NCBI GenBank assembly: GCA_944472155.2
Contig: OX235275.1
Location: 32,072,731 to 32,136,730, forward strand
Reading direction: 5' to 3'
DNA: 64,000 nt
Origin: Trichobilharzia szidati
Taxonomy: Eukaryota; Platyhelminthes; Trematoda; Strigeidida; Schistosomatidae
In this document: positions 2,516 through 62,320 of the stretch, piece by piece
Position numbering within the stretch: the stretch's first letter is position 1
Layout of the letters: every line of letters begins with the position of its first letter
Program-made: the position numbers and the translations under genes
The notes under the pieces: generated by a model
Database searches by the model: none
Told to the model about the DNA's origin: nothing
The model's input: the letters and a program-made list of their open reading frames with translations, nothing else

Positions 2516-2945
2516 TATAGTTTGGTTTGTAAGCGTTTGTTATGTTTTTACGAGTTGATCACGGACTGATATCAGTTAGAGAACCATTGAAAACCAGCAC
2601 AGGAGTACTGGACAGCTGCTGTTTCATCCTACTTTGGGAATCATCGGCAGTACGCACCCACTGGGATTCGAACCCAGGACTTTCTGGTTACAAGGCAAGC
2701 TCATATACCATTCAGCCACTGGGACCCTATTCGATGCCTCATGGATTCTAACTTCTACTAATTCGTGATTTAGCCCGACCCCAACCATTGTCGTTAGTGG
2801 GACATCCATCCACACACGTGACATCCAATTGGACCTCACTGGTCATGACTTCTCACTAGAACTCCGGGAAGCTCCATCCTGTAGCAGGTCACTAGCGAGC
2901 ATCAGGTTAATTTTCTGTAGTTTGTATTGTAAAGGTTTGTTATGT
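2516..2945 (-). mobile_element. SINE family B (tRNA-like head plus hammerhead), left copy of inverted pair
   Basis: Read on the minus strand it has the family B order: a 5' leader, a tRNA-like segment with box A (GTGGCTGAATGG) and a box B (GGGTTCGAATCCC), then the hammerhead segment, a 3' body, and a tail resembling 'ccctacaaaccaacac'. The hammerhead part (about 2600-2650) has the derived core CCGATGA instead of CTGANGA and a mismatched stem II, so it is probably inactive. It faces the plus-strand copy at 2946-3249; the two form arms of roughly 300 bp with only a few differences. Confidence 0.85.
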
Positions 2946-3249
2946 CGTGACCAGTGAGGTCCAATTGGATGTCACGTGTGTGGATGGATGTCCCACTAAC
3001 GACAATGGTTGGGGTCGCGCTAAATCACGAATTGGTAGAAGTTAGAATTCATGAGCCATTGAATCGGGTCCCAGTGGCTGAATGGTACACGAGCTTGCCT
3101 TGTGACCAGAAGGTCTTGGGTTCAAATCCCAGTGGGTGCGTACTGCCGATGATTCCCAAAGTAGGATGAAACAGCAGCTGTCCAGTACTCCAGTACTGGT
3201 TTTCATTGGTTCTGTAACTGATATCAGTCAGTGATCAACTCGTAAATAC
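2946..3249 (+). mobile_element. SINE family B, right copy of inverted pair
   Basis: Nearly the reverse complement of 2542-2845. The tRNA-like head is at about 3068-3142 (box A near 3074, box B GGGTTCAAATCCC near 3118) and the hammerhead-like segment at about 3140-3192. Its core reads CCGATGA, which breaks the CTGANGA consensus. The mirror-image arrangement could arise by template switching or twin priming during retrotransposition, or by palindromic duplication. Confidence 0.85.
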
Positions 3250-3605: not shown

Positions 3606-3689
3606 AGTTATAATATTAAGCATAAAAATCTGTAATGCAAAATAGAATATCACATTAAATTATGAGGGAAATTTATGCAACAAATTAAG

Positions 3690-4075
3690 GATACAGGATT
3701 TTCATCATGAGCTGACATTAGTTAGAGAACCATTGGAAAACCTGGGAGTACTAGACAGCTGTTTCGTCCTAGTTTGGGACTCTTCAGCAGTACACACCCA
3801 CCGGGATTCGAACCCTGGACCTTCTGGTTACAAGGCGAGCTCGTATACCTTTAAGCCACTGGGACCTGATCCCATGCCCCATGAATTCTAATTTCTGCAA
3901 ATTCACAACATAGCGCAACCGCTAGCCAATGTCTTCGGCGAGTATTTGTCCTCACGCCCGACCTGCTGCACCCTACTGGTCACGACTTCTCACTAGAACC
4001 CCAGGCAACTACCTACCTGAATAGGGCAAGTCACTAGTGAGCATCTCATTGATATTCAAATCCCTACAAACCAAA
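3690..4075 (-). mobile_element. SINE family B copy with intact hammerhead core
   Basis: A nearly full-length family B copy on the minus strand. The 5' leader is at about 4050-3890, the tRNA-like head at about 3870-3796 (box B motif GGTTCGAATCC on the minus strand), the hammerhead at 3793-3748, and the 3' body down to about 3690. At the leader end a short piece of the family's tail (ccctacaaacc) occurs in opposite orientation, suggesting rearrangement on insertion. This is the best-preserved ribozyme copy of the family in the window. Confidence 0.85.
3748..3793 (-). ncRNA. Hammerhead ribozyme, type I (intact core)
   Basis: On the minus strand all core elements are in order. Stem I 5' strand GUACUG is 3793-3788. 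The core CUGAAGA at 3787-3781 fits CUGANGA. Stem II GUCC (3780-3777) pairs with GGAC (3769-3766) around a 7-base loop. GAAA is at 3765-3762. Stem III is made by the self-complementary octamer ACAGCUGU. The cleavage-site triplet is GUC, ending at 3754. The stem I 3' strand UAGUAC (3753-3748) pairs with the 5' strand with one G-U. The predicted cut lies between 3754 and 3753. Such compact hammerheads are known from schistosome Sm-alpha repeats, but this stem I and stem III differ from that family. Confidence 0.8.
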
Positions 4076-4084
4076 AACCTTGAA

Positions 4085-4860
4085 ATTAAGAATAGTTAAA
4101 ACATCGCTGATGGTCAAGATAAGGAAGCCGTCTGAACCAACTTATTTTGCTTACACAGAGAAATCTACCGATAAGAATATGAATCTAAAGCCAAAGTGTC
4201 AACAATTCTGAACTTCAAAAACTTCTGCCCCAATGAGTTACAAACAGGGATTGGTGAGAACACTGTTTGATCGTGAAAAGAAACTTTGTTCAGAAGAAAA
4301 AGTGAAGGAAGTACGAGCCACTATTGAAAAATGCCTGCACGATAATGGTTACCCAAAGAAGTTCATCGAGAAACATGGGAAACGTAGTACAGCACAGCAG
4401 AGAAAAAACCCGTCTTTCTATAGCTTGTCTTCAAAAATGACGATGCTGCTAGTAGAATAAGATGCAGACTGAACGCCGCCCTGAAAAGAACATATCCAGC
4501 TGCAAAACTTGTATGTGTTTATCAAACGAACAGTTGTTTAAGACAGTCAAAAGTGGAAAAACTCCCACCTCATGTTACCTCCAACTGTGTCTACTAATTT
4601 ACATGTACGTGCCAAGCACATACATTGGAAGAACAGAGAGAAGGGTTGTTGTCCGCATTTCTGAACACATACCAAAGAACCTGAGACTGAAAGGTCCGCA
4701 AGCATTAAACAGTGCGATTGCGCGTCATCTATTAGACACTGGTCATATTGTAGACAACCTGAAGTCATTCAAAATAATCAACAAGCAAAGGAAACCTAGC
4801 TTACTACGCTATGCTGAAGCAATTGATATCAAACGACTTAAACCAAATCCATGTACGTAG
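4085..4860 (+). pseudogene. Penelope-like element fragment: RT linker and GIY-YIG endonuclease
   Basis: Two consecutive open frames, 4233-4460 and 4462-4860, cover the end of the PLE polyprotein. The first has the linker typical of PLEs (I-E-K-C-L-H-D-N-G-Y-P-K-K-F-I-E). The second carries a GIY-YIG-type segment, T-Y-I-G-R-T-E-R-R, followed by R-I-S-E-H, and ends R-L-K-P-N-P. The reverse transcriptase upstream is missing and the two frames are separated by a stop, so this is a 5'-truncated, broken copy. The C-terminal half resembles the remnant at 54650-54940. The GIY-YIG nuclease would nick target DNA during PLE retrotransposition. Confidence 0.8.
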
Positions 4861-7015: not shown

Positions 7016-7244
7016 GTCTTCTACATGTGACCAACGGACTTACATCCAACCTGTCGTTTCCTTTTTGAATTTATTGCGAGGAAGTGGTGTGCGACGTGGT
7101 CTCGTTTAAGGATATCTTTAGAATGTTCCCAATCCGTCACCATTTTCTTCTGCCGATATGTTCTTGGTTGGTTTGGTGCCCGCTTGGGTGCCTTGTTGAT
7201 TACACTTCCAATCACCTGATCTTCAGTAGGCAGTAAAGGTGTTT
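7016..7244 (-). other. Unidentified basic short open frame
   Basis: The minus strand holds a 64-codon frame (7215-7021) rich in Lys and Arg (P-K-R-A-P-N-Q-P-R-T-Y-R-Q-K-K). I do not recognise a family. It is bounded by repeats and may be a fragment of an unknown element. Confidence 0.2.
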
Positions 7245-7635
7245 AGATAGTTGGAGGCAATCGTCCACAGGAAGCCCTACACCTTGGACCTAGGTTTCGT
7301 GCTAGTTGGCACTCACCAGTCAGCAAGGCGTATCTGCAACCTTGAAGGAACTCATGTCCCTTCTGAGATTCGAAACCACGTCACCCAGTGCTGCCTGCAG
7401 TCACAGACGTTACCACTGAGCCAGCTATTCGGGCTAGCGACTGACCTCCTGTAGGACTGTAGTGGCTATTTTGATTGAACACTAGTGACTAGTGTGACGT
7501 GTCTAGTCCTTTCTTTGGTGCAGACTGAATTCTATGAGTCAGTCAGGTTTGCAATGTGGGCACCAACAAACCAGGTAGCTCGCCATCACGGTGCACATTG
7601 ATTTGATGATAGTGGTTAGTTGGAGGCAATCGGTA
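7245..7635 (-). mobile_element. tRNA-derived SINE, family C
   Basis: Read on the minus strand it carries a tRNA-like head (CCCGAATAGCTGGCTCAGTGGTAACG near 7436-7410, then a box B-like segment near 7370), then the conserved family C body. That body includes TTGGAGGCAATCG and GGACTAGACACGTCACAC-like ends. The same body occurs at 13935-14330, 19085-19570, 50160-50400 and 57300-57610, often with inverted partial copies of the 'gttggaggcaatcg' end on both sides. Confidence 0.75.
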
Positions 7636-7808: not shown

Positions 7809-8640
7809 GTGGAATTCGCATTCAACAAAGCCATTAACAGACTAAAAGATGGGATTACAATGAGATTACCTCTGGGTCCACTGCTAGCAGACTGTTTCGT
7901 GGCTAATATTAAGAATAGCCTATTCAAGTCAACTATTGATAATTTTCAATTGTATGCGACATATGTGGATGACATCTTTGTTATCTGTGATGATAACAAT
8001 GATTTTAATTGACAGTTACAGAGATATTCAACAAATGGGGTCGAGCAACAACGTCCAATTTTTAAATAGAAAATCAATCTAAAATTCCTTTTCTTGATAT
8101 CGAACTTAGAAGAAGAGTCGACGGAACTGTAAGAAGATCCATTCCTTTGGAAACCCACATGGGATGGTCAACTGTAAAGTTTCTACAGTTTCTGCGTACC
8201 ATTTAGTTGTAAACGAAACCTAACACGATGTCTCTTGCTACTCGCGTCCAACGCATATGTAATCCTGATACTCTGGAAGAAGAACTACACTTTTGAAAGA
8301 AATCTTCATGAAAAATGGACATTCAAAACAAGATCACTTGACAAGAACATCAAGCCGAAAATTCAAAGACAAGAGACGTGCCAACAAAAAGGAACTTTAC
8401 ACGAACCTCGACTTCAAAGTTGACCTACTAGGTGATGTCCTTAGGAGGAGAATTTCGGCATCTTTAAGAAAAACATTCTTCGCACCGACGTTAAGAGATA
8501 CTGACATTGATCGTTTGATGCGGATCCTCTCTAAAAAGATTCAAGAACACTATCCAGCATTGCTGCGAAAAGCCAGTAGTCGCTGCATAAGAAGTGTGAT
8601 GATCGAAAACACTATCAACACTAGTCATCCATCATTAGAT
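7809..8640 (+). pseudogene. Penelope-like element RT domain and linker
   Basis: Frame 7809-8012 contains P-L-G-P-L-L-A-D-C-F and then Y-V-D-D-I-F-V-I, the catalytic YVDD box of PLE reverse transcriptases, and stops soon after. Further frames (8235-8423 and 8293-8685) give L-D-I-E-L-R-R-R equivalents, the linker with M-K-N-G-H, and V-L-R-R-R-I-S-A-S-L-R-K-T-F-F. The GIY-YIG part is absent; the coding sequence runs directly into an inverted terminal repeat. Multiple frameshifts make it non-functional. Confidence 0.85.
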
Positions 8641-9119
8641 ATAAGATTTTATTTTCTAAAATCACACAGTGTTGTTATACAGTAATATTTACTGATGACA
8701 ACATTTCGAGCACAAACTATTGCCACTCATAATCACATCAAAGTACTCAATCCCACAACCTTTTACTTCATTTATATACACGAGTGAAATTGATGATTAC
8801 ACATTTGAATACAAATCAATATAAGATAAAGTACAATCAGAAATAATAATATGGATGTTATCAATCAAGTACAATCAGATGGGAAATAAGACGAGTGTTT
8901 TTATAGTCAAAATAACAAGTAACTTGTTATAATGTTATAATGTACGTGTATGTCTAATCAGTTTCACTCATGTATATAAATAAAGGAAGAAAGTTGTGTG
9001 AGTGAGTAACTTGATATGATTATGAGTGGCAATAATTTGTGCTCGAAACGTTGTCATCAGTAAATATTACTGTATAACAACACTGTGTGATTTATCAAAA
9101 TAAAATCTTACCTATAATG
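8630..9119. repeat. Palindromic PLE terminal repeat (pLTR)
   Basis: Left arm about 8630-8802 is the reverse complement of right arm about 8950-9119, with 8803-8949 between. Both arms contain 'ataatcatatcaa'-like and 'gtgctcgaaac' segments found at the ends of the PLEs at 26143-27490 and 38450-39870, and partly at 18990-19675. PLEs are known to carry long terminal repeats in direct or inverted orientation. On the plus strand, 9007-9075 can be drawn as a hammerhead-like fold with a 2-bp stem III, but the core is not canonical. Confidence 0.75.
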
Positions 9120-9292
9120 CAGGTATACTCTACCACAGTGACCAAGTTTTATACTGGTCATCCATCTCAACAAACGAACGCCCCCTCCTTCACAGTAATC
9201 CACAAAGTGAAGAATAACCTGCCGAAGACGACAATACTCTTTCACCTCCTTTGCACTGCGAATGTTTAATTTTTGTTATATATTTTGATTAT

Positions 9293-13934: not shown

Positions 13935-14330
13935 TAATGTGTGTGTCTAGTTGTATCTTTGGTGTAGACTGAATTCTATCATCATTCAAGCTTGCAGTGT
14001 GGCCAGCATTCCAGGTGGCTTGCCATCATGACCATTTTGAGATGGTGGTATTAGAAGGTTGGAGCTTCGATAGATTCCTCATCAGGCTCTGTATTTGTAG
14101 TGATAGATGAATCGCGAGCCCGAATAACTCGATGGTAACGTCTTTGACTGCAGGCAACACTGAGTGACACGGGTTTGAATCTCAGAAGAAGAGACAGGAG
14201 TTCCTTGAAGGTTAAGGGTACTCCTTGCTGATTGGTGCGTACCAACTAGCACGAAACCTATCTGGTCCCAGCAAGGCTTCCTGTGGCCGATTGTTTCCAA
14301 CCATCTAATACCAACAATCCATTGCGGAAA
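13935..14330. mobile_element. SINE family C, partly inverted copy
   Basis: 13935-14050 carries the 3' body in minus orientation. 14095-14330 carries the tRNA-like head (box B-like GGGTTTGAATCTC near 14170) and the 'ggccgattgtttccaacc' end in plus orientation. The junction at about 14050-14095 marks an internal inversion like those in SINE B. Confidence 0.65.
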
Positions 14331-19085: not shown

Positions 19086-19570
19086 ATGTTACATGGTTGG
19101 AGGCAATCAGCAGGAAGCCTAGGATCGGACATTGCAAACCTGACAGATAGAATTCAGTCGGCCATCAAACAAAGGACTCGACACATCATACTAGTTACTA
19201 GTGTCCAATGAAAGTGTTCAATACAGTCCTACAGGAAGTCGTTGGTGGGCCCGAGTAGCTCAGTGGTTATGTCTCTGACTGCAGGACTGTTTGACGTGGG
19301 TTCGTATCTCAGGAGGGATATGAGTCCCTTCAAGGTTGTAGATACGCCTTGTTGACTGGTGAGTGCCAAACTAGCTTGAGACTTAGGTTAGTCAAGGCTT
19401 CCTGTGCGACCGATTGTCTCCAACCATCTAATACCAACAATTCACATTGCACCATGATGGCGAGCTACCTAGAATGGTGGCCACATTACAAGCCTAGCTG
19501 ACAGAACTCATTCTGGACTAAACAAAGGACTAGACACATCACACTAGTTACTGGTGTCCAATGAATGTCA
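19085..19570 (+). mobile_element. SINE family C, longest copy
   Basis: A tRNA-like head lies at about 19238-19315 (GCCCGAGTAGCTCAGTGGTTA, with a box B-like GTGGGTTCGTATCTC). A body follows with GACTGGTGAGTGCC, 'cgattgtctccaacc', and an end with 'ggactagacacatcaca'. A partial copy of the 3' body also lies upstream at 19095-19210 in the same orientation, so this is a partial dimer. It splits the PLE terminal repeat; the flanks (aaagtcaaacag and gaatgtcacacag) may be a diverged TSD. Confidence 0.75.
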
Positions 19571-19674
19571 CACAGTGTAATACAGTAATATATACAATGT
19601 TGCGAACACGGTATATTGCTGCTCATAATCATATCGAATTACTCACTCACACAACTTTCTGACTTCGGTCATAT
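19571..19674. mobile_element. PLE terminal-repeat fragment, right part
   Basis: Continues the pLTR ('cacagtgtaatacag' ... 'ctgctcataatcatatc' ... 'cacacaacttt'). Confidence 0.7.
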
Positions 19675-19910: not shown

Positions 19911-20339
19911 TTCACATGATCTGTCATCAAGATTTGACAGAATAGTTCTAAAATATTTGGGTGCCGAGTGAGAAGTAGACATTTGTAAAAAAATTATATT
20001 TGTAAAATCTCAGCGAGATTGAAATGAGTGATTATTGAAAAGAATATTCTTCGTTCAGATTGACTTTTAATTCACTATGATGTGGGAATATTTCACACTA
20101 TTAAGTTGTATAATAAAATAAAAAAATAAATAAAATTGACAGTAATAACTAAAGAACTATCGTCTCATCTTGTACACACATCACCCCCTCCACCCCGTCA
20201 CAAACAATACAACAGCTTCTGATATAATTTTCATGAGGATACCTCGAAATCGGTTATCTTACCGAAATCTCAATAGAATTCAGCGAAAATAATTTTCCTC
20301 ATCGATGAAATCATTTCCAAAGACCGTACAATCTTAATT
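19911..20339. other. AT-rich spacer
   Basis: No gene or element is recognised. Confidence 0.4.
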
Positions 20340-20668
20340 ATTCAGGTAGGTAGTTACCTGGGGTTCTAGTGGGAAGTCGTGACCAGTAGGGTGCAGCAAG
20401 TCGGGTGTGAGGACAAATATTCGCCGAAGACATTGGCTAGCGGTTGCGCTATGTCGTGAATTGGCAGAAGTTAGAATTCATGGGATCGGGTCCCAGTGGC
20501 TTAATGGTCTATGAGCTCGCCTTGTAACCAGAAGGTTCTGGGTTCGAACCCCGGTGGGTGCGTACTATTGAAGAGTCCCAAACTAGGACGAAACAGCTGT
20601 CTAGTACTCCCAGGTTTTCCAATGGTTCTCTAACCGATGTCAGCTCACGATGAAATCCTGTAACCAAT
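20340..20668 (+). mobile_element. SINE family B copy
   Basis: Order: leader with 'caggtaggtagttacctgg' (20344-20362), conserved 'gaattggcagaagttagaa', tRNA-like head at about 20488-20560 (box A GTGGCTTAATGG, box B GGGTTCGAACCCC), hammerhead 20562-20607, and 3' body to 'atgaaatcctgtaacc'. One of the least damaged copies. Confidence 0.9.
20562..20607 (+). ncRNA. Hammerhead ribozyme copy with compensated stem I
   Basis: Stem I GUACUA (20562-20567) pairs fully with UAGUAC (20602-20607). Stem II GUCC (20575-20578) pairs with GGAC (20586-20589). GAAA is at 20590-20593, the palindromic stem III octamer is ACAGCUGU, and the cleavage triplet is GUC. The single deviation is UUGAAGA for CUGANGA (C3 to U), which usually cripples catalysis. 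The last stem I pair is A-U here and G-C in other copies, i.e. both sides changed. Confidence 0.7.
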
Positions 20669-20699
20669 CTTACTTATATTTACAATAAAAACTTATAAC

Positions 20700-25880: not shown

Positions 25881-26142
25881 CAACTGGTCACGACTTCTCA
25901 CTGGATCTTCAGTTAACTTCTTCTTTCACTTAGTTACTAATTTGTATCAAGTGTGTTCTAATTGGAAATCGATCAAATCTCTGAAAGGTAACACCAAAGT
26001 TCACACATAATACAGGTCAAATAGTGAGGTAATTGATAGTGACATGCTGGTTGCTTAAACCTATAGTTCATAGATCAGCTAAATGCTACAGAATACTCAG
26101 GAAGAAAAATCATTGTAAAAATAGGCAGAAAATGATTATCCG
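25881..26142. other. Unassigned sequence
   Basis: No element is recognised. Ends with the 13-bp target AAATGATTATCCG (26130-26142) of the following PLE. Confidence 0.5.
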
Positions 26143-27490
26143 TTGATATAAGTATAAAACTTGGGCACTGTGGTAGAGCATAACTCCATTATGGATAAGA
26201 TTTTATTTTGATAAATCACACAGTGTTGTACAGTAATATTAACTGATGACCACGTTTCGAGCACAAATTATTACTGCTCATAATCATATCAAGTTACTCA
26301 CACAACTTTTTCCTTCATTTATATACATGTGTGGAATCGATTAGATATTGGAATAAAATTCAATATGAGATAATGTACATTCAGAAATAATAATACGAGT
26401 GTTATTGATCAAATACAATTAGATGAGAAATAAGACGAGTGTTTCTATAGTAATAATAAGTTACTTCTTAGAATGTTGTGATGTGCTTGAATTGAAATAG
26501 AATATTAAGATTATTTATTATTCTCTTCTGATTTGACCGGAGGTAATAATATCTTCCATATTTCTGGTATTTGCATTGAGTCATTTCTGTTGCATGTATT
26601 GGGTGTAGACTCAATGAACAAGGATTCCGTAATCAACCTCTCTCTCCACCTACCTATGTTACTCTTTAGATGACATCTGAGACCCTACGTAGGATTCTAA
26701 ATAAAGCAGGAATTAGGGTGGCATTCAAACCTACAAACTCACTCAGGGACAAGCTCTGTAGGTTAAAAGACCCTGTTGACCCAATTAAACAAAATAATAT
26801 AATTTACAAAATACCTTGCAATGACTGTGAAGTCAATTACATAGGTCAGACTAGTAGGTCGGGGGTAGTCAGATTATCAGAACATAAGAATTTAGCTAAG
26901 GGAAGAATGGTTGACCCTGAGAAGATTAGTAATTTAGAAAAAAGCTCAGCAATTGCACTTCACGCATTAACAAACAACCACACAGTAGGGTGGGATAGGG
27001 TTAAAATTCTAAAGAGTAACATAGGTAGGTGGAGAGAGAGGTTGATTACGGAATCCTTGTTCATTGAGTCTACACCCAATACATGCAACAGAAATGACTC
27101 AATGCAAATACCAGAAATATGGAAGATATTATTACCTCCGGTCAAATCAGAAGAGAATAATAAATAATCTTAATATTCTATTTCAATTCAAGCACATCAC
27201 AACATTCTAAGAAGTAACTTATTATGACTATAGAAACACTCGTCTTATTTCCCATCTAATTGTAATTGATCAATAACACTCGTATTATTATTTCTGAATG
27301 TACATTATCTCATATTGAATTTTATTCCAATATCTAATCGATTCCACACATGTATATAAATGAAGGAAAAAGTTGTGTGAGTAACTTGATATGATTATGA
27401 GCAGAATAATTTGTGCTCGAAACGTGGTCATCAGTTAATATTACTGTACAACACTGTGTGATTTATCAAAATAAAATCTTATCCATAATG
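26143..27490 (+). mobile_element. Complete PLE insertion with 480-bp inverted arms and 13-bp TSD
   Basis: AAATGATTATCCG at 26130-26142 and 27491-27503 delimits a 1348-bp insertion. Left arm 26187-26669 is the reverse complement of right arm 27009-27490, nearly perfect over 480 bp. The right arm contains the last third of the coding frame, the 3' UTR and the terminal repeat, so the left arm carries an antisense copy of that coding part. The unique centre is 26670-27008. Such 5'-truncated copies with an inverted 3' end are typical of Penelope retrotransposition. The target is the decayed PLE now at 27504. Confidence 0.9.
26670..27167 (+). pseudogene. PLE GIY-YIG endonuclease domain (open frame, 5' truncated)
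   Basis: 165 codons. L-R-R-I-L-N-K-A-G-I-R-V-A-F-K-P leads into I-I-Y-K-I-P-C-N-D-C-E-V-N-Y-I-G-Q-T-S-R: a C-x2-C pair followed by the GIY-YIG core. R-L-S-E-H-K-N follows (catalytic Arg and His region), then A-I-A-L-H and L-I-T-E-S-L-F-I-E, whose Glu may be the metal ligand of the family. The frame begins exactly at the end of the inverted arm, so its ATG is accidental and the RT is missing. Close relatives: 63342-64000 (+), 43845-44310 (-) and 38450-39870 (-). Confidence 0.85.
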
Positions 27491-27503
27491 AAATGATTAT
27501 CCG

Positions 27504-28385: not shown

Positions 28386-29215
28386 TAGCCAGCTAAAAGC
28401 TCAAACCCACGCTATGTATCCTAAAAAAATATGTCCAACCTCTTGTATCTGCCATGGCCATCATAAACAGGTAATTCTTTGAATAGTGACTATCCCATTG
28501 CCTTTCTTATCCAAACTTCTTGTTTATTCATATTATTTTTAAGTTTTTCTTAATCCCTATTTACACTACTATATTTTCATATCCAAACTTCCTGTCTAGT
28601 TTGTCATTTTATTATTTCTACATATTTAATCCCTGATTGCACAAAATGTCAATCTTCTCAGTAATTATGATGCTACTTTGTTTGAATTTTATCCGTCCCC
28701 TTGTTTATAATTGCATTTTAATTCCTTATTGTAATTTTATTATTACGAGTTGATCATGGATTGATATCAGTTAGAGAACCATTGAAAACCAGCACCGGAG
28801 TACTAGACAACTGTTTCATACTAGTTTGGGAATCATCGGCAGTACGCACCCACTGGGTCCCAGTGGCTGAATAGTATACGAGCTTGCCTTGTAACCAGAA
28901 GGTCCTGGGTTCGAATCCCAGTGGGTACGTACTGCCGATGATTCCCAAACTAGGATGAAACATCTGTCCACTACTCCGGTGCTGGTTTTCAATGGTTCTT
29001 TAACTGATATCAATCCATGATCAACTCGTAAAAACAAAACTAATCCTTACAAACCAACTATAGAAAAAGTAATTTTAATAATTTAACCATTGATCGGAAA
29101 TTATTCTAGAACTTTCCCACCCATTTATTATAAATACACGAATGTACAGCCTAGTTGATGACTTCATCGAAAAGAAAATTTTCTTCACTGCAACTGTCTT
29201 TTCATTATTCCCTAC
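28386..29215 (+). mobile_element. PLE C-terminus and 3' UTR, interrupted by a SINE B inverted dimer
   Basis: 28386-28470 encodes the end of a PLE protein (K-L-K-P-T-L-C, then Y-V-Q-P-L-V-S-A-M), as at 10010-10080. The shared 3' UTR continues to 28742 and resumes at 29069-29215. GTAATTTTATTA (28731-28742) recurs as GTAATTTTAATA (29069-29080), the TSD of the SINE insertion. Confidence 0.8.
28743..29068. mobile_element. SINE B inverted dimer inserted as one unit
   Basis: Arms 28744-28852 (minus orientation) and about 28920-29026 (plus orientation) are reverse complements and both contain the hammerhead segment. The tRNA-like head lies in the centre (box B GGGTTCGAATCCC at about 28908-28920). 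One TSD flanks the whole, so both arms entered together. The junction at 28850-28862 is a short palindrome, CCCACTGGG next to TCCCAGTGG, consistent with template switching at microhomology. Cores read CCGATGA. Confidence 0.8.
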
Positions 29216-32485: not shown

Positions 32486-32746
32486 TAATTGAATTTTAGA
32501 ATTTCCCGTCGACTGATGATTGAACCGAAGTGCTCGGTCTCAGGTTGACATGTTGGCTTTTTGTGCAGATGCTTCGACGATGTCTCGTCATGTAATTAGA
32601 ATTTCATTGGTGCATGCTGACTAGCAATGGAATCCAGGATAACGCGCATTTCGTCCTATTTGGCAGGTACATCCAGATGACGAGTCCCAAATAGGACGAA
32701 GTGTGCGTTATCCTGGCTGGATTCCCCTGCTAGTCACCATCCACCA
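32486..32746 (+). mobile_element. Sm-alpha-like hammerhead repeat with 16-bp TSD
   Basis: Flanked by perfect 16-base copies of ATTAAATATTCTCATT (32470-32485 and 32747-32762). The 5' part (32515-32560: 'cccgtcgactgatgattg', 'ccgaagtgctcggtctcagg') recurs in the unit at 33110-33368. The 3' part has the schistosome-type hammerhead (GACGAGTCCCAAATAGGACG) and ends CTGCTAGTCACCATCCACC. The segment 32619-32664 is a partial reverse complement of 32685-32750, so the unit carries ribozyme halves on both strands. Confidence 0.85.
32665..32730 (+). ncRNA. Hammerhead-like segment (Sm-alpha type), degenerate
   Basis: Stem I ATCCAG (32671-32676), core ATGACGA (C3 changed to A), stem II GTCC/GGAC intact, but GAAG in place of GAAA, then a T/G-rich stem III region and a stem I partner CTGGAT about 5 bases later than expected. 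Recognisable by homology, probably inactive. Confidence 0.65.
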
Positions 32747-32762
32747 ATTAAATATTCTCATT

Positions 32763-33107: not shown

Positions 33108-33368
33108 TTAATTCAATTTTAGATTTTCCCGTCGATTGATGATTGGACCGAAGTACTCAGTCTCAGGTTGACAAGTCGGCTCCTTGTGCAGATGCTTCGA
33201 CGATCTCCGGGGAATGTAACTAGAAGTTAACTGGTGGATGGTGACTAGTAGTGGAGTCCTGGGATTCAGAATCCAGAATCCTGAATGTACCTCTGCATCC
33301 CAGATGACGAGTTCCAAAAAAGTGCGAAACGCGCATCCTGCATTCTACTGCTAGTCATCATCCACCAA
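33108..33368 (+). mobile_element. Second Sm-alpha-like hammerhead repeat
   Basis: Same order as the unit at 32486. Hammerhead segment 33294-33352: core ATGACGA, stem II weakened, GAAA present, and the stem III octamer ACGCGCAT, one base from self-complementary. The triplet is AUC. A short imperfect flanking repeat (aatgaggatag / aatgagacgatag) may be a TSD. Confidence 0.75.
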
Positions 33369-36785: not shown

Positions 36786-37440
36786 AATCCATGCTAGTTG
36801 GCGGGAATTCTATAGGTACGTTTCCACCTACCTGAACTCTACGGAGTATTCAGCCTGAACTAATCTATTCAGTGAAAAGAAAAGACATTCGATGCTAAGT
36901 TGAATTTCCAAATTCTTTAGCCATTATAAAATTAGAAAACAATTATTTTTCAAGAATACAATCACTGATCACCGAAGAGTAATCAGTGTAACACTACTGC
37001 ATGCAAGGTGTTCTAACTGAAGCCTATTCACATTAGGATTTCACTGTGTAAAGAAAGACTTATCACTGAAATGAACTGTAAATTGAAGTTTGGCTTACAG
37101 TTAACTACTATCGGTAGGAAGTGTAGAATCTTGTTTTTCTGATTACGCACTGACCCCTACCTCACCTTCCCTCTCTTAAACAAGACGTATCTCGTAAAAT
37201 CGGATGGAATCAGTGCCAGCTGTGGCATTGTAAACTGAACTTAGTTATTAATGTTAGGTGGAGAAAGTAAATAATCGAGTGTTCAAGTTTCGAAACTGTA
37301 TTTTGGTGAAATCAGACAGTGAGATACCTCTTTCCCCCCCCTCTTTCTCCCTCTCGCTCACTATCACACATGCACACACTGACAAACACGTATGGAGAGT
37401 GAGAGGAACAGATACTGTGCAAATTGGTTGGAGTATTTCA
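36786..37440. other. Unassigned sequence
   Basis: Contains a C/T-rich tract at 37328-37358. No gene or element is recognised. Confidence 0.4.
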
Positions 37441-37665
37441 TCATGAGCTGACATCAGTTAGAGAACCACTGGAAAACCAGCAGAGAGTAGTGGACAGCTG
37501 TTTCGTCCTATTTTGAGACTCTTCACCACCCACTGCCAGGCTTCGAACCCACGACCTTCCAGTTACAAGGTGACTGCTGTCGTAGACCATTAAGCCACTG
37601 GAACCCGCCAATCCAACGGCCAGACCATGAATTCTGACTTCTGGCAATTCACGACATAACTGACG
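37441..37665 (-). mobile_element. SINE B copy (minus), hammerhead partly deleted
   Basis: The minus strand contains the tRNA-like head and 3' body. Stem I 5' strand and the start of the core are missing (GTGGTGAAGAG), though stem II, GAAA and ACAGCTGT remain. Confidence 0.75.
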
Positions 37666-37689
37666 TCAGAACATGATGTAATCCTACAA

Positions 37690-38150
37690 CCAATCAAAAA
37701 AAATACCACCACCACAAAACTAATACTTGAAAAATCATCTGATGCTCACTAGAGACTTGCTCTGTTCAGGTAGATAGTTACCTGGGAAGTCATGACCAGT
37801 AGGATACAGAAGGTTGAAGGTGAGGCAGTAACTCATCGAAGAAGACATTGGCTAGTGGTCACGTTATGTCATGAATCGGCAGAAGTTGGAATTTATGGAC
37901 TGGAAATCGGGTTGGGTTCCAGTGGCCCAAATGACAATGCACTCGCCTTGTAACCAGAAGGTCCTGGGTTTGATCCCTAACGGTGAGTGCCTGCCGCTGA
38001 AGAGTCCCAAACTAGGCTAACGAAACGGCTGTTTAGCACTCCGGTGCTGGTTTTCCAATGGTTCTTTAACTGATGTCAACTCATGGTGAAATCCTCCAAC
38101 CAATCAAACAAAAATATCCCTACAAAAACCAACACTTGAAAATGTGTAAA
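37690..38150 (+). mobile_element. SINE B copy preceded by another unit's 3' tail
   Basis: The sequence opens with a family tail ('caaccaatcaaa', 'aaactaatacttgaaaa', 37690-37735), runs straight into a leader ('ctgatgctcactagagac'), then head, hammerhead segment (CTGAAGA core intact, stem II damaged), body, and a second tail ending near 38145 ('aaaccaacacttgaaaa'). This is a head-to-tail junction between units. Confidence 0.75.
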
Positions 38151-38449: not shown

Positions 38450-39870
38450 AAAAATTGAGCACCGTGTTAGTGGAATTATATATTAATGCGTTTATTACAT
38501 ATATCACACACAGAGAGAAAGTGAAACAGTATTATTATTTACTGGATGACACCGTTTCGAACACAATTTATTATTGCTCATAATCATATCAATTATGACT
38601 ACACAACCTTAAAACCTTCGTTTTATAGGTTTCTTTATTCCTTACTATTCGTCATAGGAGTAGAAGAATTTTCCCGATGTCCTGGTGGACAGATGTTGAA
38701 TCATTTCTGTTACACGTATTCGATTGTCAATCTCTCCCTCCACCCTGTGACATTAGTTTCTGAAACTTTCATTTTATCCCACCAAACTATTGTATGGTTG
38801 TGTGGAATTGCATGTTGTGTAGTGCTACAGCTGAACTATTCTCTAGATTTCTTATCTTATTCGGGTCAATTAATCTAGATTTTGCTAGGTTTTTATGCTC
38901 GGCTAGTCTGACTGCCCCTGTTCTACTACTTTGACCTATGTATTTGACGTCACTGACAATCATTGCCGGAAGGGTATTAGATAAACTAAATTGTTTTGTT
39001 TTAAAGGCTCCACAGGATCCATCATTTAAGACAAAGCTTGTTTCTAATTGAGTTTTTGGGTTTGGACACCAGCCACTTTTATTCCTGCGTAAGGTTTCCT
39101 AGGTCTTTTGTTTGTATGGAATTACCACTGGTAATTGAAATTCCTTACCGTTGGTGTTGTCATCATTCGGAGCATGTTTGTCATGTATGCCATTATGATG
39201 ATTATTAATTTTATTTTTACATTTTCCTACATACTTCCTGATTAATTTGTCTGGGTAATTATTAATTTTTAAAGCTTCTCTAATATGCCTTACTTCCGGT
39301 CTTAGATTTTCCTTGGTACTAGTTAGTTTTTGTACCCTATTACTTAAACATTTCACCAGTCCTATTTTTACTGACATACAGTAGGACGATCGGAAATCCA
39401 AATATCGGTTTGAATGTGCGCTTGGGTTTCCTGTAAACACTAGTGTTTAACTTCCCATCTTTTTTCCATTTTATACTACAATCTAACATTGGAAGCTCCT
39501 CTTCCTGACTTTCCAATTCATAAGTGAATTGAATTGCCTCTGCCTTCGATGTCATGTCTTCGACAAATCGATTCAAGTACAGTGAATGTATCATCTACAT
39601 ACCTCCACCATACTTTGAGGATGGGGTTTAATGTTTCAATGGCTAATTATCCCCACCTTCCCACGGAATATATCTGCCACAATCGAGGATATTGACGATG
39701 CCATAGTAACTCCCTTAGTTTGTTTGTATATTTTCCCTTGGAATTTAAATACTGTGGAAGTCAAGCATAGCTGCACTCCTAGCATTATGTCCTCTAGTGG
39801 GACTTTTGTTCTAAGTTCAAGTTATTGGTCAGAAATGAGTTCATTTCTGATCGCTTCTGTAGCCATATTT
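38450..39870 (-). pseudogene. Penelope-like element with RT and nuclease region
   Basis: On the minus strand, RT pieces begin near 39870. F-K-F-Q-G-K-I-Y-K-Q-T-K-G-V-T-M-A-S-S-I-S lies at about 39760-39690. The catalytic Y-V-D-D-T-F is at 39601-39590 and onward. Frame 39594-39340 carries M-L-D-C-S-I and S-V-Y-R-K-P, and frame 39440-39099 the linker with I-N-N-Y-P-D-K-L-I. 39110-38880 is a degraded nuclease region. A pLTR-like end sits at 38450-38620. Frameshifts separate the YVDD motif from the following frame. A GT run at 39874-39893 marks the 5' edge. Confidence 0.8.
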
Positions 39871-42960: not shown

Positions 42961-43850
42961 AGAGACTAAAGAGAGATTTAAAAGAGAGATAATAAACAGA
43001 AATATGAGGCAAAAAGAATAGTAATATGGAAGAAAACAGTAGAGCGCTTTGATTAAATATGACAAATCGCAAAGAGTGAATTCATCTGCGCCAGCCATTC
43101 ACAACGATTTTGAGTCATACCACCAATTGTCTCCAATCATTAGTTTTATTATCCCGAGGAAGCCAGTCTACGCCTCCCTACATGACTTAAACTAACTATT
43201 GTGAATTTCGTTGACTGATGAAGCCATGTAATGGTTTGACCACCACTAGTTCTTTTCCAACCTGATCCAGCCTATGTCAGCTAACATCGCCCGTCAGTCG
43301 AGGAAGGCGATGAATAGGCATGCGTAACACATGTCCTAACCATCTCAATTGATGCAACTGCTTCACAACCTCGTTGATTTCCCCCCTCCTTACCTAGCAC
43401 TCAACCAATACCTAACGTGGGTATTGCTAACCTTATTATACCACCAATTAACAGGGGAGATAGAACGCAGACACCGAAGATCAAACACACATAACATTGT
43501 CATATCTTCCACTTTCAATGGCTATGTCTCACGGACAGCCATTAATGAGGACAGAGCAAAGTGCTGAGCAGTACACATGCCCTTTGGTCGACAGCTAGCC
43601 GGGTATCATGTCTACTATGCCGGAAATACCGTAACTTGGTAGTAAATCCCGAACGATCCTTCTGTATCCATGCTGAGATTTCGTCAGATATCAACTTGCT
43701 GGGGCTGATGCAACTTCCCAAATAAATGAAGTGGTCAACACGCTCCAACAACCACTTCATTCCTGTCTATCTTTAAGCTAGGACTGAGTTAATGTAGTCC
43801 AGTCCTGTAGCATCATCTTACATTTGACAGCAGAAGCGAATCACACGTTA
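42960..43850 (-). pseudogene. RTE LINE (second family) C-terminal half
   Basis: On the minus strand, 43850-43760 covers the region after the catalytic box. 43760-43542 reads E-R-V-D-H-F-I-Y-L-G-S-C-I-S-P and K-L-R-Y-F-R-H. 43345-43070 holds the degraded R-L-G-H-V-L-R-M-P region. A stretch of about 170 bp (43386-43560) looks foreign to the LINE and may be an insertion. Confidence 0.75.
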
Positions 43851-44730: not shown

Positions 44731-44983
44731 TAACTTCTCCCTGTTCAGACGAAAAATGTCGCAGAGACTTACAATTCAATATCTCTGTACAGCCAAATTA
44801 TGTACACCTTATCTCCAAATCATCATCTGCACATGTTATATCTGCGCTTACCAGTTGTTATAATGGTAATGAACTCGACTGGTACGCTAATACGTCTATT
44901 TGTCCGTTGTACCTTCCGATTCACTGAGACAAGCAAATATTAAAAGACAAAGGCTGGCCTGTGGCTGTAAGATATTGTATATT

Positions 44984-45405
44984 CAAGGTTTGGTTTGTAG
45001 GGATTTGATTGGTTACAGGATTTTCATCATGAGCTGACATCAGTTAGGGAACCATTGGAAAACCTGAGAGTACTGGACAGATGTTTCGTCCTAGTTTTGA
45101 ACTTTTCAGCAGTACGCACATACCGACAGGGTTCGAACCCAGGACCTTCTGGTTACAAGGCGAGCTCGTATACCATTAAGCCACTGGGACCCGATCCCAT
45201 GGCCCATGAATTCTAACTTCTGCCAATTCACGACATAGCGCGACCGCTAGCCAATGTCTTCGGCGAGTATTTGTCCTCACACCCGACCTGCTGCACCCTA
45301 CTGGTCACGACTTCTCACTATAACCCCAGGTAACTACCTACCTGAATATGGCAAGTCTCCAGTGAGCATCTCATTGATATTCAAGTGTTGGTTTGTAGGG
45401 ATTTG
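44984..45405 (-). mobile_element. Longer-than-unit SINE B copy with 10-bp TSD
   Basis: ATTGTATATT at 44974-44983 and 45406-45415 flanks it. On the minus strand it starts with the family's own 3' tail ('caaatccctacaaaccaac'), then leader, tRNA-like head (box B GGGTTCGAACCC), hammerhead, body, and ends with the same tail ('caaatccctacaaaccaaa'). The tail copies (44980-45010 and 45378-45408) match at 29 of 31 positions by eye. Its ribozyme reads CTGAAAA (G8 changed) with stem II preserved by a U-G pair. Confidence 0.85.
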
Positions 45406-45419
45406 ATTGTATATTTTTG

Positions 45420-50159: not shown

Positions 50160-50400
50160 TAAATCTGTGCAGAGCCAGTCCTACAGGAGGTCAATCGCGA
50201 GCCCGAATAGCTGGCTCAGTGTTAACGTCTCTGACTGCAAGCAGCATTGGGTGATGCGGATCGAATCTCAGAAGGGACATCAGTTCCCTCGAGGTTTTTG
50301 CAGATACGCCTTGCTGACTGGTGAGTGACCAACTAGCACGGAACCTAGCTCAGACAGGGCTTCCTGCCGATTCCCTCCAACTATCTAATATCACCAAGCC
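50160..50400 (+). mobile_element. SINE family C copy
   Basis: Head (GCCCGAATAGCTGGCTCAGTG; box B-like GCGGATCGAATCTC at about 50255-50270), body with 'ttgctgactggtgagtg', and end with 'tctaatatcacc'. Confidence 0.7.
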
Positions 50401-57299: not shown

Positions 57300-57610
57300 G
57301 TGTTCGGTGATATTAGATGGTTGGAGGCAATCGACAGGAAGCCTTGCAATCAGAAGAGACATCAGCTCCTTCAAGGTTGCAGATACACCTTGCTGACTGG
57401 TGAGAGCCGAATAGCATGAAACTTAGGTCAGTCAAGGCTTCAGTCCAAGGCCGATTGCCTCCAACCATCTAATACCATCAAATCAATGTGCACCATGATA
57501 GCGAGCCACCTAGCTTGTTGATGGCCACATTGCAAACCTGACTGACTGATAGAATTCAGTCTGCACCAAAGAAAGGACTAGACACATCACAGTAGTTACT
57601 AATGGTGTTT
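57300..57610 (+). mobile_element. SINE family C, with inverted ends
   Basis: Begins with 'ttagatggttggaggcaatc' and later has its reverse complement 'gattgcctccaaccatctaa' (57463-57482). Head is missing; body and the 'ggactagacacatcaca' end are present. Confidence 0.7.
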
Positions 57611-60700: not shown

Positions 60701-60754
60701 ATCGAAGACAGAACTTCAAGGCATCAGAAGTTATACAGTAAAGTGTAGATTGGT

Positions 60755-61110
60755 CAGAGGTTGATCACGAGCTAACATCTGCCAGGCAACCAGTGAAAAA
60801 CCAAGAAGCGTTTGAAAACTGTTTCATCCTTCTTTGGGACTCATCAAGAATACGTATCCGACAGAGTTCACATCCATGGCCTTAAAGGAAGAAGAAGTCA
60901 CCTATGGCAGCGGATAGATGATCTACGAGGCCGCCTTTTAATGGGAAGGTTCTGGGTTCGGACCCCGATGGATGTGCGGTGCTGAAGAGTCTTAAACTAG
61001 GAAGAAACAGCCGTCCAGTACTCCTAGCCGGTTTTCCAGCGGTTCTCTAATTGATGTCACCTTGTGAACAAGCTTGTAAACAATCAAATCCCCACAAAAC
61101 CAACTCTGCA
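60755..61110. mobile_element. SINE B inverted pair
   Basis: 60755-60885 is minus and degraded. 60890-61110 is plus with box B GGTTCGGACCCC. Its hammerhead keeps CTGAAGA and GAAAC, but stem II and stem I pairing are damaged. Confidence 0.7.
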
Positions 61111-62320
61111 AAATTTAGACTGTTAATCCAGTTCTATTACATGAGTAAAACAAGCACAGAAAAAAAATACTCCGAAAGTTTTTTTCTTGTTTAAAAGTCT
61201 GTTCTTTTTTCTGTCATAACTTAATTTTTGTATAAAAACCATTACAAAGTTAACTATTGATTCATTGAATGAAAGCAAATTCATAAGAGCCGCTCTCACG
61301 CACTTTCTTTGTTAAGCTGAGCAGATTATTGATTACATATTTGATTTGTCTAAACGAAAACAAAAATGCAAAAAGACAACAAAACTTAGACAAAATGCCG
61401 AAAAGATAAACACAGAGGTGATTTCATTAAAAGGTATATAGAATTCTGTGATATTCTTATATGCGTTTATGTATATATATAGGTGCGTGCATGCATGCGT
61501 ACACTCTTGTCAAGACGTTGTCAGACATCTGGAACAGAAATCATACTTTGTTGTTCAAATAATATTTTCTAATTTACCGATCATTCTATAATTACTCTTA
61601 ATAGTCCGCCTTTTATGATTTTGGCGTAGAATTTGATATTAAAAAAAACACCATGGAGACTGTATGCTTAAAAATTATCAGCACGCTAAGCGTATATGCA
61701 ATGCTATTATTATGTTTCGTTTAATATGTCAAGACTGAAATCCGGACGCCTAGTTGGGCACAGAGGCTTTGATCACGAATATCGTTTGACTACGCCAATA
61801 ACATAAATACGATAGCTGAATGTTCTCATCCCCCAGTACGAACTCCTTAAACGATAGCACACAATGACATGAGCTGAAAAGTATATTTTCTACACAATAA
61901 TGAATAAATTCAAGATATCACCAAAGATAGATCAGTTAGTTTGTAATCATGATCAATAAAATAGTGGGCATTATCTCATAAAGGCTATTCTGATTGGTTA
62001 ATTCCCAAACTGGACATCGATCACTTCTGCGGGCTAAATTGTGATTGGTCAATTTCCAGACTTGACATCTATCACCATACCAGTTATGCAGGTATTCAAG
62101 GTTATTTGACATTACAACTTTACAATATTGACAAGTGTGACAAGAAGCAGATTGATAAAATGAAGGACATCATCATAGAAGTATTCGAGTCATGTTAAAC
62201 GTTGGTATAACTCATACCAAGGTGTAGCCAACATAGGAATTTAGCAGAATTCGGAAACTATTAACTCGTCTTATAGAAGATTTCAAGTACTAGTTTATGC
62301 AGATTTGTTTGATATTAAGT
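61111..62320. other. Mostly unassigned AT-rich region
   Basis: 61955-62085 repeats 21828-21960 in inverted orientation. 61480-61500 is TA/TGCA-rich. No gene recognised. Confidence 0.4.

Follow-up and report, generated by a model that had tools for sequence, protein, structure and literature searches.

We report that family B, a short repeat family of Trichobilharzia szidati (described as an avian schistosome in PMC4465651), is probably a non-autonomous retroelement that combines a Pol III-type promoter with a type I hammerhead ribozyme and is inserted by Penelope-class machinery, a reading to which we give a probability of about three in four. The architecture of its copies, their ends, the target duplications around them, insertions of more than one unit, and a signature shared with two resident copies of a Penelope-like element (PLE) are all visible in the genome. 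In our judgement this insertion signature says more than the ribozyme itself, and the label "SINE" needs a Penelope qualifier.

The initial annotation of the 64-kb stretch analyzed here (hereafter the window) had read a hammerhead with a complete core from the minus strand at 3748-3793, and had proposed a scan with the Rfam Hammerhead_1 model (RF00163) as a check. As a sequence motif this observation is confirmed: the model matches with 50.8 bits (E 3e-10, cut-off 34) along its complete length (positions 1-45), and a strict motif script (CTGANGA with stem II, 3 bp or longer, directly after it, then GAA, A15.1/U16.1, H17 and a stem I no shorter than 4 bp) finds all conserved core bases and the GUC cleavage triplet. 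This copy is the only strict match on either strand of the window, and none was found in any of 20 shuffled windows. The alignment and the motif also agree with the annotation that stems I and II are paired, and the position of the GUC in the alignment places the predicted cut where it had been placed, between 3754 and 3753. Stem I comprises 6 bp, with a core-adjacent pair that is G.U in the focal copy and G-C in most aligned copies, while intramolecular pairing of stem III (ACAGCUGU) is limited to 2 bp and a 4-nt loop. The Rfam cut-off is exceeded by five hammerheads of the window: one is Sm-alpha-like and four belong to family B, namely the focal copy and those at 20562+, 44664+ and 45070-, each of the latter with an altered core base. 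The features of the focal copy are as follows, where S1 and S2 are the near and far outer-end sites described below.

3748..3793, minus strand: type I hammerhead ribozyme with complete core (RF00163, 50.8 bits; sole strict-motif match in the window)
3753..3754, minus strand: predicted self-cleavage site GUC^U, from its position in the Rfam alignment
3804..3814, minus strand: B box GGTTCGAATCC, 11/11, 5' of the ribozyme
3847..3858, minus strand: A box TGGCTTAAAGGT, 10/12, 5' of the ribozyme
3735..3742, minus strand: GGTTTTCC, with TTTT 3' of the ribozyme, a possible Pol III stop
3689..4059, minus strand: long arm of family B, unit 224 to 199, outer end at the near site S1
4056..4085, plus strand: short inverted arm, unit 202 to 229, outer end at the far site S2
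3682..3689: target duplication AAATTAAG, 8 bp, left copy
4083..4090: target duplication AAATTAAG, right copy

The ribozyme lies just after the tRNA-like head, as annotated. Matches to the A and B boxes reach 11/12 and 11/11 in the family-B unit (10/12 and 11/11 in the focal copy), and a Pol III transcript carrying the ribozyme is plausible on this basis. The description "tRNA-headed" holds for the boxes and for a weak overall likeness but goes too far for the Rfam tRNA model, which matches in the window only at two other family-B copies with 25.5 and 24.0 bits (cut-off 29), and gives no match at E 0.5 or better in loci L025, L035, L011 and L005. ARAGORN calls a 96-base tRNA-Phe(aaa) at the focal head, which we do not trust; the Rfam tRNA model rejects the head. 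The TTTT, 14 nt past the ribozyme cut and ahead of S1 and S2, could end a Pol III transcript before the apparent reverse-transcription start sites, so that the templates of insertion may be read-through transcripts.

The annotation's label "SINE" suits the A and B boxes but is incomplete for a 394-bp unit that has about 170 bp 5' of the A box, is cut by its ribozyme after base 135 (unit coordinates), and occurs as partial tandems, one 6.4-unit array and two-armed head-to-head insertions; a LINE-driven SINE does not readily explain the tandems and the two-armed insertions. In the genome (1.11 Gb, 907 contigs), a query made of the focal head and ribozyme gives at least 42 family-B matches (40 of 2,387 candidates were scored, and the figure is not a copy number), six of them spaced 394 bp apart on one contig. 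This array (C1:149484885-149487419; 2,536 bp, 6.4 units) ends at S2 and is flanked by a 12-bp match, of which three bases at one end and one base at the other fall within the aligned element; we consider it a single insertion. Apart from a private A196G in three of the seven and two changes in the 5'-most partial unit, the units do not differ. A196G, beside S1, alternates irregularly among the units, for which RNA editing, reverse-transcription error or a mixed multimeric template are candidate origins. The unit tiles the array with nothing in between and is too short for the reverse transcriptase (RT) and GIY-YIG open reading frame (ORF) of an autonomous PLE; family B has no protein-coding capacity. 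Further copies in the window, with those of a second, Sm-alpha-like family (family A), are listed here.

2522..3241: older family-B head-to-head pair, 2522-2939 (minus) ending at S2 and 2944-3241 (plus) at S1; flanks agree over 4 bp only, taken as no match
20339..20669, plus strand: family-B copy with one arm seen, ribozyme 20562-20607 (47.7 bits; C3 is T)
28734..29067: S1/S2 pair of family B, arms head to head with the junction at 28855-28857
37423..38143: S1/S2 pair of family B, likewise head to head, junction at 37657-37658; its plus arm reaches S2 in one alignment and stops at unit 176 in another
44974..45409, minus strand: family-B copy of 431 nt, exceeding the 394-bp unit; G8 is altered in its ribozyme (45070-45115)
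60748..61114: head-to-head pair of family B, arms 71 bp apart, ends S1/S2; flanks agree over 4 bp only, taken as no match
32486..32754: family-A (Sm-alpha-like) head-to-head pair, S2/S1, 16-bp flank match; ribozyme 32671-32722
33109..33367: family-A (Sm-alpha-like) head-to-head pair, S2/S1; flank match of only 6 bp

The hammerhead at 32671+ has SM-alpha-type stems and represents the separate family A, which matches the Rfam Hammerhead_1 consensus, presumably an SM-alpha-based one. Comparison with it bears out the annotated claim that stems I and III of the focal copy are unlike those of Sm-alpha, and head and body differ as well. At E 0.01 the family-B query has no match in the family-A region (32.4-33.4 kb), and at E 1e-8 the family-A unit matches this region alone in the window and no family-B copy; at these thresholds, and with family A as proxy, family B thus has no detectable homology to SM-alpha.

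We aligned both units to each strand of 50 genome loci (28 A, 22 B), in samples that are ribozyme-baited rather than unbiased. The B loci were picked by the focal head and ribozyme (30 of the 42 listed matches, leaving 22 after array members and second pair halves were dropped), and the ribozyme model supplied the 28 A loci, which contain 35 of its 74 listed hits; four A loci (L069, L086-L088) were added for their closely spaced hits, and 21 of 22 A composites are S1/S2 without them. Abutting arms stand head to head, minus then plus, in 39 of the 50 loci (26/28 A, 13/22 B), while the same 50 hold no abutting tail-to-tail pair. Their outer ends fall at two sites, both 3' of the ribozyme: S1, 58-71 nt 3' of the ribozyme cut, and S2, mostly at 91-96 nt. 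S1 is paired with S2 in 25 of 26 family-A composites, the last being S2/S2 (L070), and in 10 of 13 family-B composites, the other three combining S2 with an unclassified end. Family B therefore lacks the single 3' end of a LINE-type element and has instead, each used once in these ten loci, the two 3' ends beyond the hammerhead that mobilization by Penelope would leave. Altogether 35 of 36 classifiable pairs are S1/S2 (binomial 5e-10 if ends are independent and equally likely), and none of the 39 two-armed loci is S1/S1. The tail-bearing arm can lie on either side (11 and 14 times in A, 5 and 5 in B). One-armed B loci make up 9 of the 22, four of which have flank matches of at least 10 bp in a wider search. 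Within the window, the ten family-B head-to-head pairs (gap up to 100 bp) divide into five S1/S2, including the focal one, and five with an unclassified end; two weak family-B tail-to-tail pairs are also present, and both family-A pairs follow the S1/S2 rule.

The two arms of a composite rarely begin at the same place: their starts lie within 5 unit positions of each other in 1 of 26 A and 0 of 13 B composites, and locus L069 is palindromic, both its arms starting at uA 326. Arms overlap by at least one base at the junction in 16/26 A and 9/13 B composites (25/39 as a raw count). From the unrelated starts and these overlaps we infer that two independent cDNAs were joined. Some arms are longer than one unit (11/52 in A, 3/26 in B), and such multi-unit insertions imply a multimeric or circular RNA. 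Agreement at subfamily sites is 0.84 within the same insertion vs 0.79 between different insertions for family A (17 of 22 pairs given), and 0.85 vs 0.72 for family B (12/12 pairs given); the arms of one insertion nevertheless differ by several percent. Five B arms (L021, L022, L033, L034, L035) begin at unit 251-253, and the family-A arms of L005, L070, L083, L087 and L088 share a 5' start at family-A unit 12-17. These common starts look like a fixed 5' end of the template RNA; in family B this end would lie some 170 nt upstream of the A box, a greater distance than expected of a typical Pol III start.

Outside both arms, the flanks match over 10 bp or more at 21 of 28 family-A loci, against 3 of 756 mismatched pairs, and at 7 of 15 family-B loci, against 0 of 210; the B test omitted L032 (12-bp match) and L037 (4 bp), and with both counted in, 8 of 17 B pairs reach 10 bp. 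The commonest duplication length is 13 bp (17 of 35 collected sequences of at least 10 bp; A+T 0.76), and the 8 bp of the focal duplication are also reached by 6 of 210 mismatched family-B flank pairs. Since such duplications enclose both arms, each pair so flanked represents one insertion, and we set aside independent neighboring insertions wherever flank matches enclose both arms. One-insertion pairs are as expected from cutting of both target strands with 3' overhangs and priming by both 3' ends. An inverted arm inside one duplication, a further trait of Penelope mobilization, is therefore present, though not in every copy.

The window itself holds two copies of one Penelope-like family.

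26143..27490: Penelope-like copy with a GIY-YIG-like ORF (26670-27164); minus arm with a tail of ~43 nt, plus arm without
26130-26142 and 27491-27503: 13-bp duplication AAATGATTATCCG of this copy
8634..9156: second copy of the same Penelope-like family; plus arm with tail, minus arm without
8624-8633 and 9157-9166: 10-bp duplication GTCATCCATC of the second copy

Both share the signature of families A and B, that is, two arms, a one-sided tail and a short duplication (13 and 10 bp). The Penelope-type protein of the window matches a T. szidati protein at 75% identity, and the Pfam GIY-YIG model reaches E 0.056 in the former and E 0.0023 in the latter, below cut-off in both; PLE RT fragments of T. 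szidati are known (PMC4465651). This PLE family, the only one examined in the window, has a different tail, and no autonomous PLE with the S1-S2 sequence of family B was found there. The likeness to PLEs extends to published work on other species. Rotifer PLEs are described as having inverted pseudo-LTRs, one of which may bear a 31-bp tail, and duplications of 8-10 bp, and pseudo-LTRs as having two 3' ends, an inverted arm and partial tandems (PMC3846280); hammerheads are reported to occur in PLE pseudo-LTRs (PMC7761336). According to PMC11167929, purified PLE protein in vitro uses two internal sites, both within an AC-rich stretch downstream of the hammerhead cut, to begin reverse transcription; it extends both target strands and can insert without the hammerhead, its main substrate being unprocessed RNA. 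The A+C-richest 34 nt of the family-B unit are units 196-230, which is the S1-S2 stretch, predicted to be mostly unpaired rather than a stem-loop; the A+C-richest stretch of family A contains S1, and the S1-S2 stretch of the resident PLE is not AC-rich (A+C 0.51). Family B thus shares with PLEs a hammerhead, a pair of apparent internal RT start sites, a tail that one of the inverted arms may carry, head-to-head structure, partial tandems and short target duplications, but differs in coding for no protein and in carrying a Pol III-type promoter.

Pairing of the ribozyme is well kept. Across 35 aligned A and B copies (27 distinct), 92.8% of pair cells are paired, in a count where four family-A rows (L001-L004) stand one column out of register in stem II. 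Two-sided changes occur in 5 pairs, as many as in 12 of 500 shuffles, and none of 500 shuffles reaches the covariation score. All core bases are kept in register with the stems in 12 of 23 sampled genome copies. C3 (unit position 102), an essential hammerhead base, is the most variable site of the ribozyme, with 14 C, 6 A and 2 T in 22 B copies and changes on several subfamily backgrounds. Because C3 is changed in 8 of these 22 inserted copies, copies with a broken core do insert, in agreement with the finding that PLE insertion in vitro does not require cleavage (PMC11167929). The C-to-A change creates a CUGAUGA three bases further 5', and window 32671 and 33298 are also among the sites with C3 changed to A or T. 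The best predicted fold of the focal monomer is not a hammerhead (-12.5 vs -5.0 kcal/mol). Stem III is an 8-bp self-complementary sequence that is too short in a monomer. A double hammerhead is predicted for the consensus B dimer, with an open core, and for one family-A dimer, and is not predicted for the focal dimer, two other family-A sequences or a 520-nt tandem.

We infer the enzyme, the order of steps, catalysis and the transcription of family B as follows. A PLE enzyme would cut both target strands, leaving 3' overhangs of ~13 nt, and both 3'-OH ends would serve as primers for reverse transcription of element RNA, which would begin at S1 for one end and at S2 for the other. The two cDNAs would then be joined head to head, often via short microhomology, to give a two-armed insertion inside one duplication. 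The template RNA may sometimes exceed one unit, through tandem read-through or as a circle, and multimers are probably cut down to units by the hammerhead, which may work best as a dimer through the 8-bp self-complementary stem III. Generalized to both families as "Penelope SINEs", with bilateral target priming in which one enzyme complex uses each of S1 and S2 a single time, one on either target strand, and a multimeric or circular, ribozyme-processed RNA as template, this model is one on which we are evenly divided. Its one-site-per-strand element gains no support from the absence of a strand difference in the start site reported in vitro (PMC11167929).

Several other accounts could produce parts of this picture. 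In the cycle proposed for animal retrozymes, the hammerhead cuts multimers, a host ligase circularizes the units, and the circle serves as template for reverse transcription. We consider this possible though not the likelier course: arms longer than one unit in both families, a single-insertion array of near-identical units, the consensus dimer predicted with an open core, and hammerhead circRNAs reported in coral, mussel and axolotl (PMC7761336, PMC7229834) all speak for it, but C3-changed copies (8/22) were inserted, linear read-through of an older array would look alike, PLE protein is described as inserting mostly unprocessed RNA in vitro without need of a hammerhead (PMC11167929), and the five B copies starting near unit 251-253 suggest a fixed 5' end of the template rather than a circle. 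Family B could also be debris of an autonomous element: an unseen PLE family, with a tRNA-like stretch in its pseudo-LTR, would have left solo pseudo-LTRs behind. The pseudo-LTR traits cited above (PMC3846280) and the hammerheads within pseudo-LTRs (PMC7761336) fit this idea, which is nonetheless unlikely given that successive 394-bp units of the array adjoin directly and that no B locus was noticed joined to a PLE ORF on casual reading of loci of ~3 kb.

Mobilization of a Pol III transcript by a LINE, as for an ordinary tRNA SINE with the hammerhead as passenger and with pairs made by repeated or twin-primed insertions, would accord with the A and B boxes, with window translations that read by eye as LINE reverse transcriptase, and with the filing of SM-alpha as a SINE (PMC8293314). 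Barring a LINE that itself follows the S1/S2 rule, we regard it as quite unlikely, as flank matches enclose both arms, S1 and S2 ends combine in 35 of 36 classifiable pairs, arms can exceed one unit, and the A box is preceded by about 170 bp; we rejected LINE twin priming because the arms overlap in content, unlike those primed on one RNA, and each outer end is a 3' site. Self-priming by snap-back, whether of cDNA or of antisense RNA, has been suggested for rotifer PLEs from junction palindromes (PMC3846280) and would suit the palindromic L069. Arm starts more than 5 unit bases apart in all but one of the 26 A composites and in all 13 B composites disfavor it, and we hold it to be very improbable as a source of the inverted pairs. 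We see equally little reason to take the hammerhead for a decayed or chance motif without activity: the focal arm alone passes the strict motif among 30 family-B arms in the window (not all of which reach the ribozyme), and C3 is often lost, but the 50.8-bit match, its absence from 20 shuffles, pairing kept through two-sided changes and the 12 of 23 copies with every core base in register count against this.

Elements of this type have a history in schistosomes. Published accounts exist of SM-alpha and Sj-alpha, which carry hammerheads, and of tRNA-Gln-like SINEs in S. mansoni (PMC2770079); for SM-alpha and Sj-alpha, Ferbeyre 1998 and Laha 2000 are cited in PMC2770079 and PMC8490949. Family B is reminiscent of SM-alpha and Sj-alpha in its tRNA-like head, type I hammerhead and short dispersed and tandem units; neither S1/S2 nor two-armed insertion figures in the descriptions given in those two articles, as far as these were available. 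A putative S. mansoni retrozyme with a tRNA has also been drawn (PMC4918200). Like metazoan non-LTR retrozymes, family B is non-autonomous, has target duplications, and carries a type I hammerhead in tandem units of 150-450 bp, as the 394-bp array illustrates; what sets it apart is the presence of A and B boxes together with an insertion signature of Penelope type. A review describes metazoan retrozymes as having neither a promoter nor a motif that identifies the mobilizing element (PMC7761336). PLEs have been proposed as their mobilizers from shared hammerheads, tandem copies and co-existence, and are there named merely likely or strong candidates (PMC7229834, PMC7761336). In the literature searched, which left most subscription papers outside, we found no report of family B or of an S1/S2 rule for a hammerhead SINE.

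The mobilizer of animal hammerhead repeats has hitherto had no firm assignment, and family B provides both Pol III-type boxes and the scar characteristic of Penelope-type insertion. If the proposed mechanism is true, the pairing of S1 with S2 is a readable record of two-site priming that explains the long-known one-sided tail of PLEs, and our findings suggest that this tail is a rule, one start site per arm, rather than an optional extra. Family B also adds to the SM-alpha type a second family of ribozymes in a schistosomatid.

Other hammerhead-like sequences occur nearby. The 3' region of the resident PLE (26143-27490, 8634-9156, 19568-19658, 38526-38610) has a hammerhead-like layout, with a GAAAC..GUC end in several copies and a 5' core reading AUGAUUA; it has no Rfam hammerhead match and is possibly a variant or lost hammerhead in which A-U replaces the C3-G8 pair. 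We also noted a third repeat family with a hammerhead-like motif at window 14213-14291 (plus strand), its core changed in that copy (Hammerhead_HH9, 28.3 bits, below cut-off; E 3.9e-5 in a 401-base search), with related repeats at 7243-7440, 19249-19444, 50193-50400 and 57352-57481. A probable hairpin lies at 410-523, where microRNA models stay below cut-off on both strands (422-506 and 430-498), and the Rfam mir-3492 match at 43656-43733 (plus strand; 47.9 vs 44 bits) is suspected to be a repeat rather than a microRNA. Finally, contig C5 carries two arrays of tRNA genes of equal scores: at least 36 genes at about 1.49-kb spacing (C5:8153977-8208734) and at least 13 at about 1.75-kb spacing (C5:32007885-32034034), the latter ending ~39 kb before the window.
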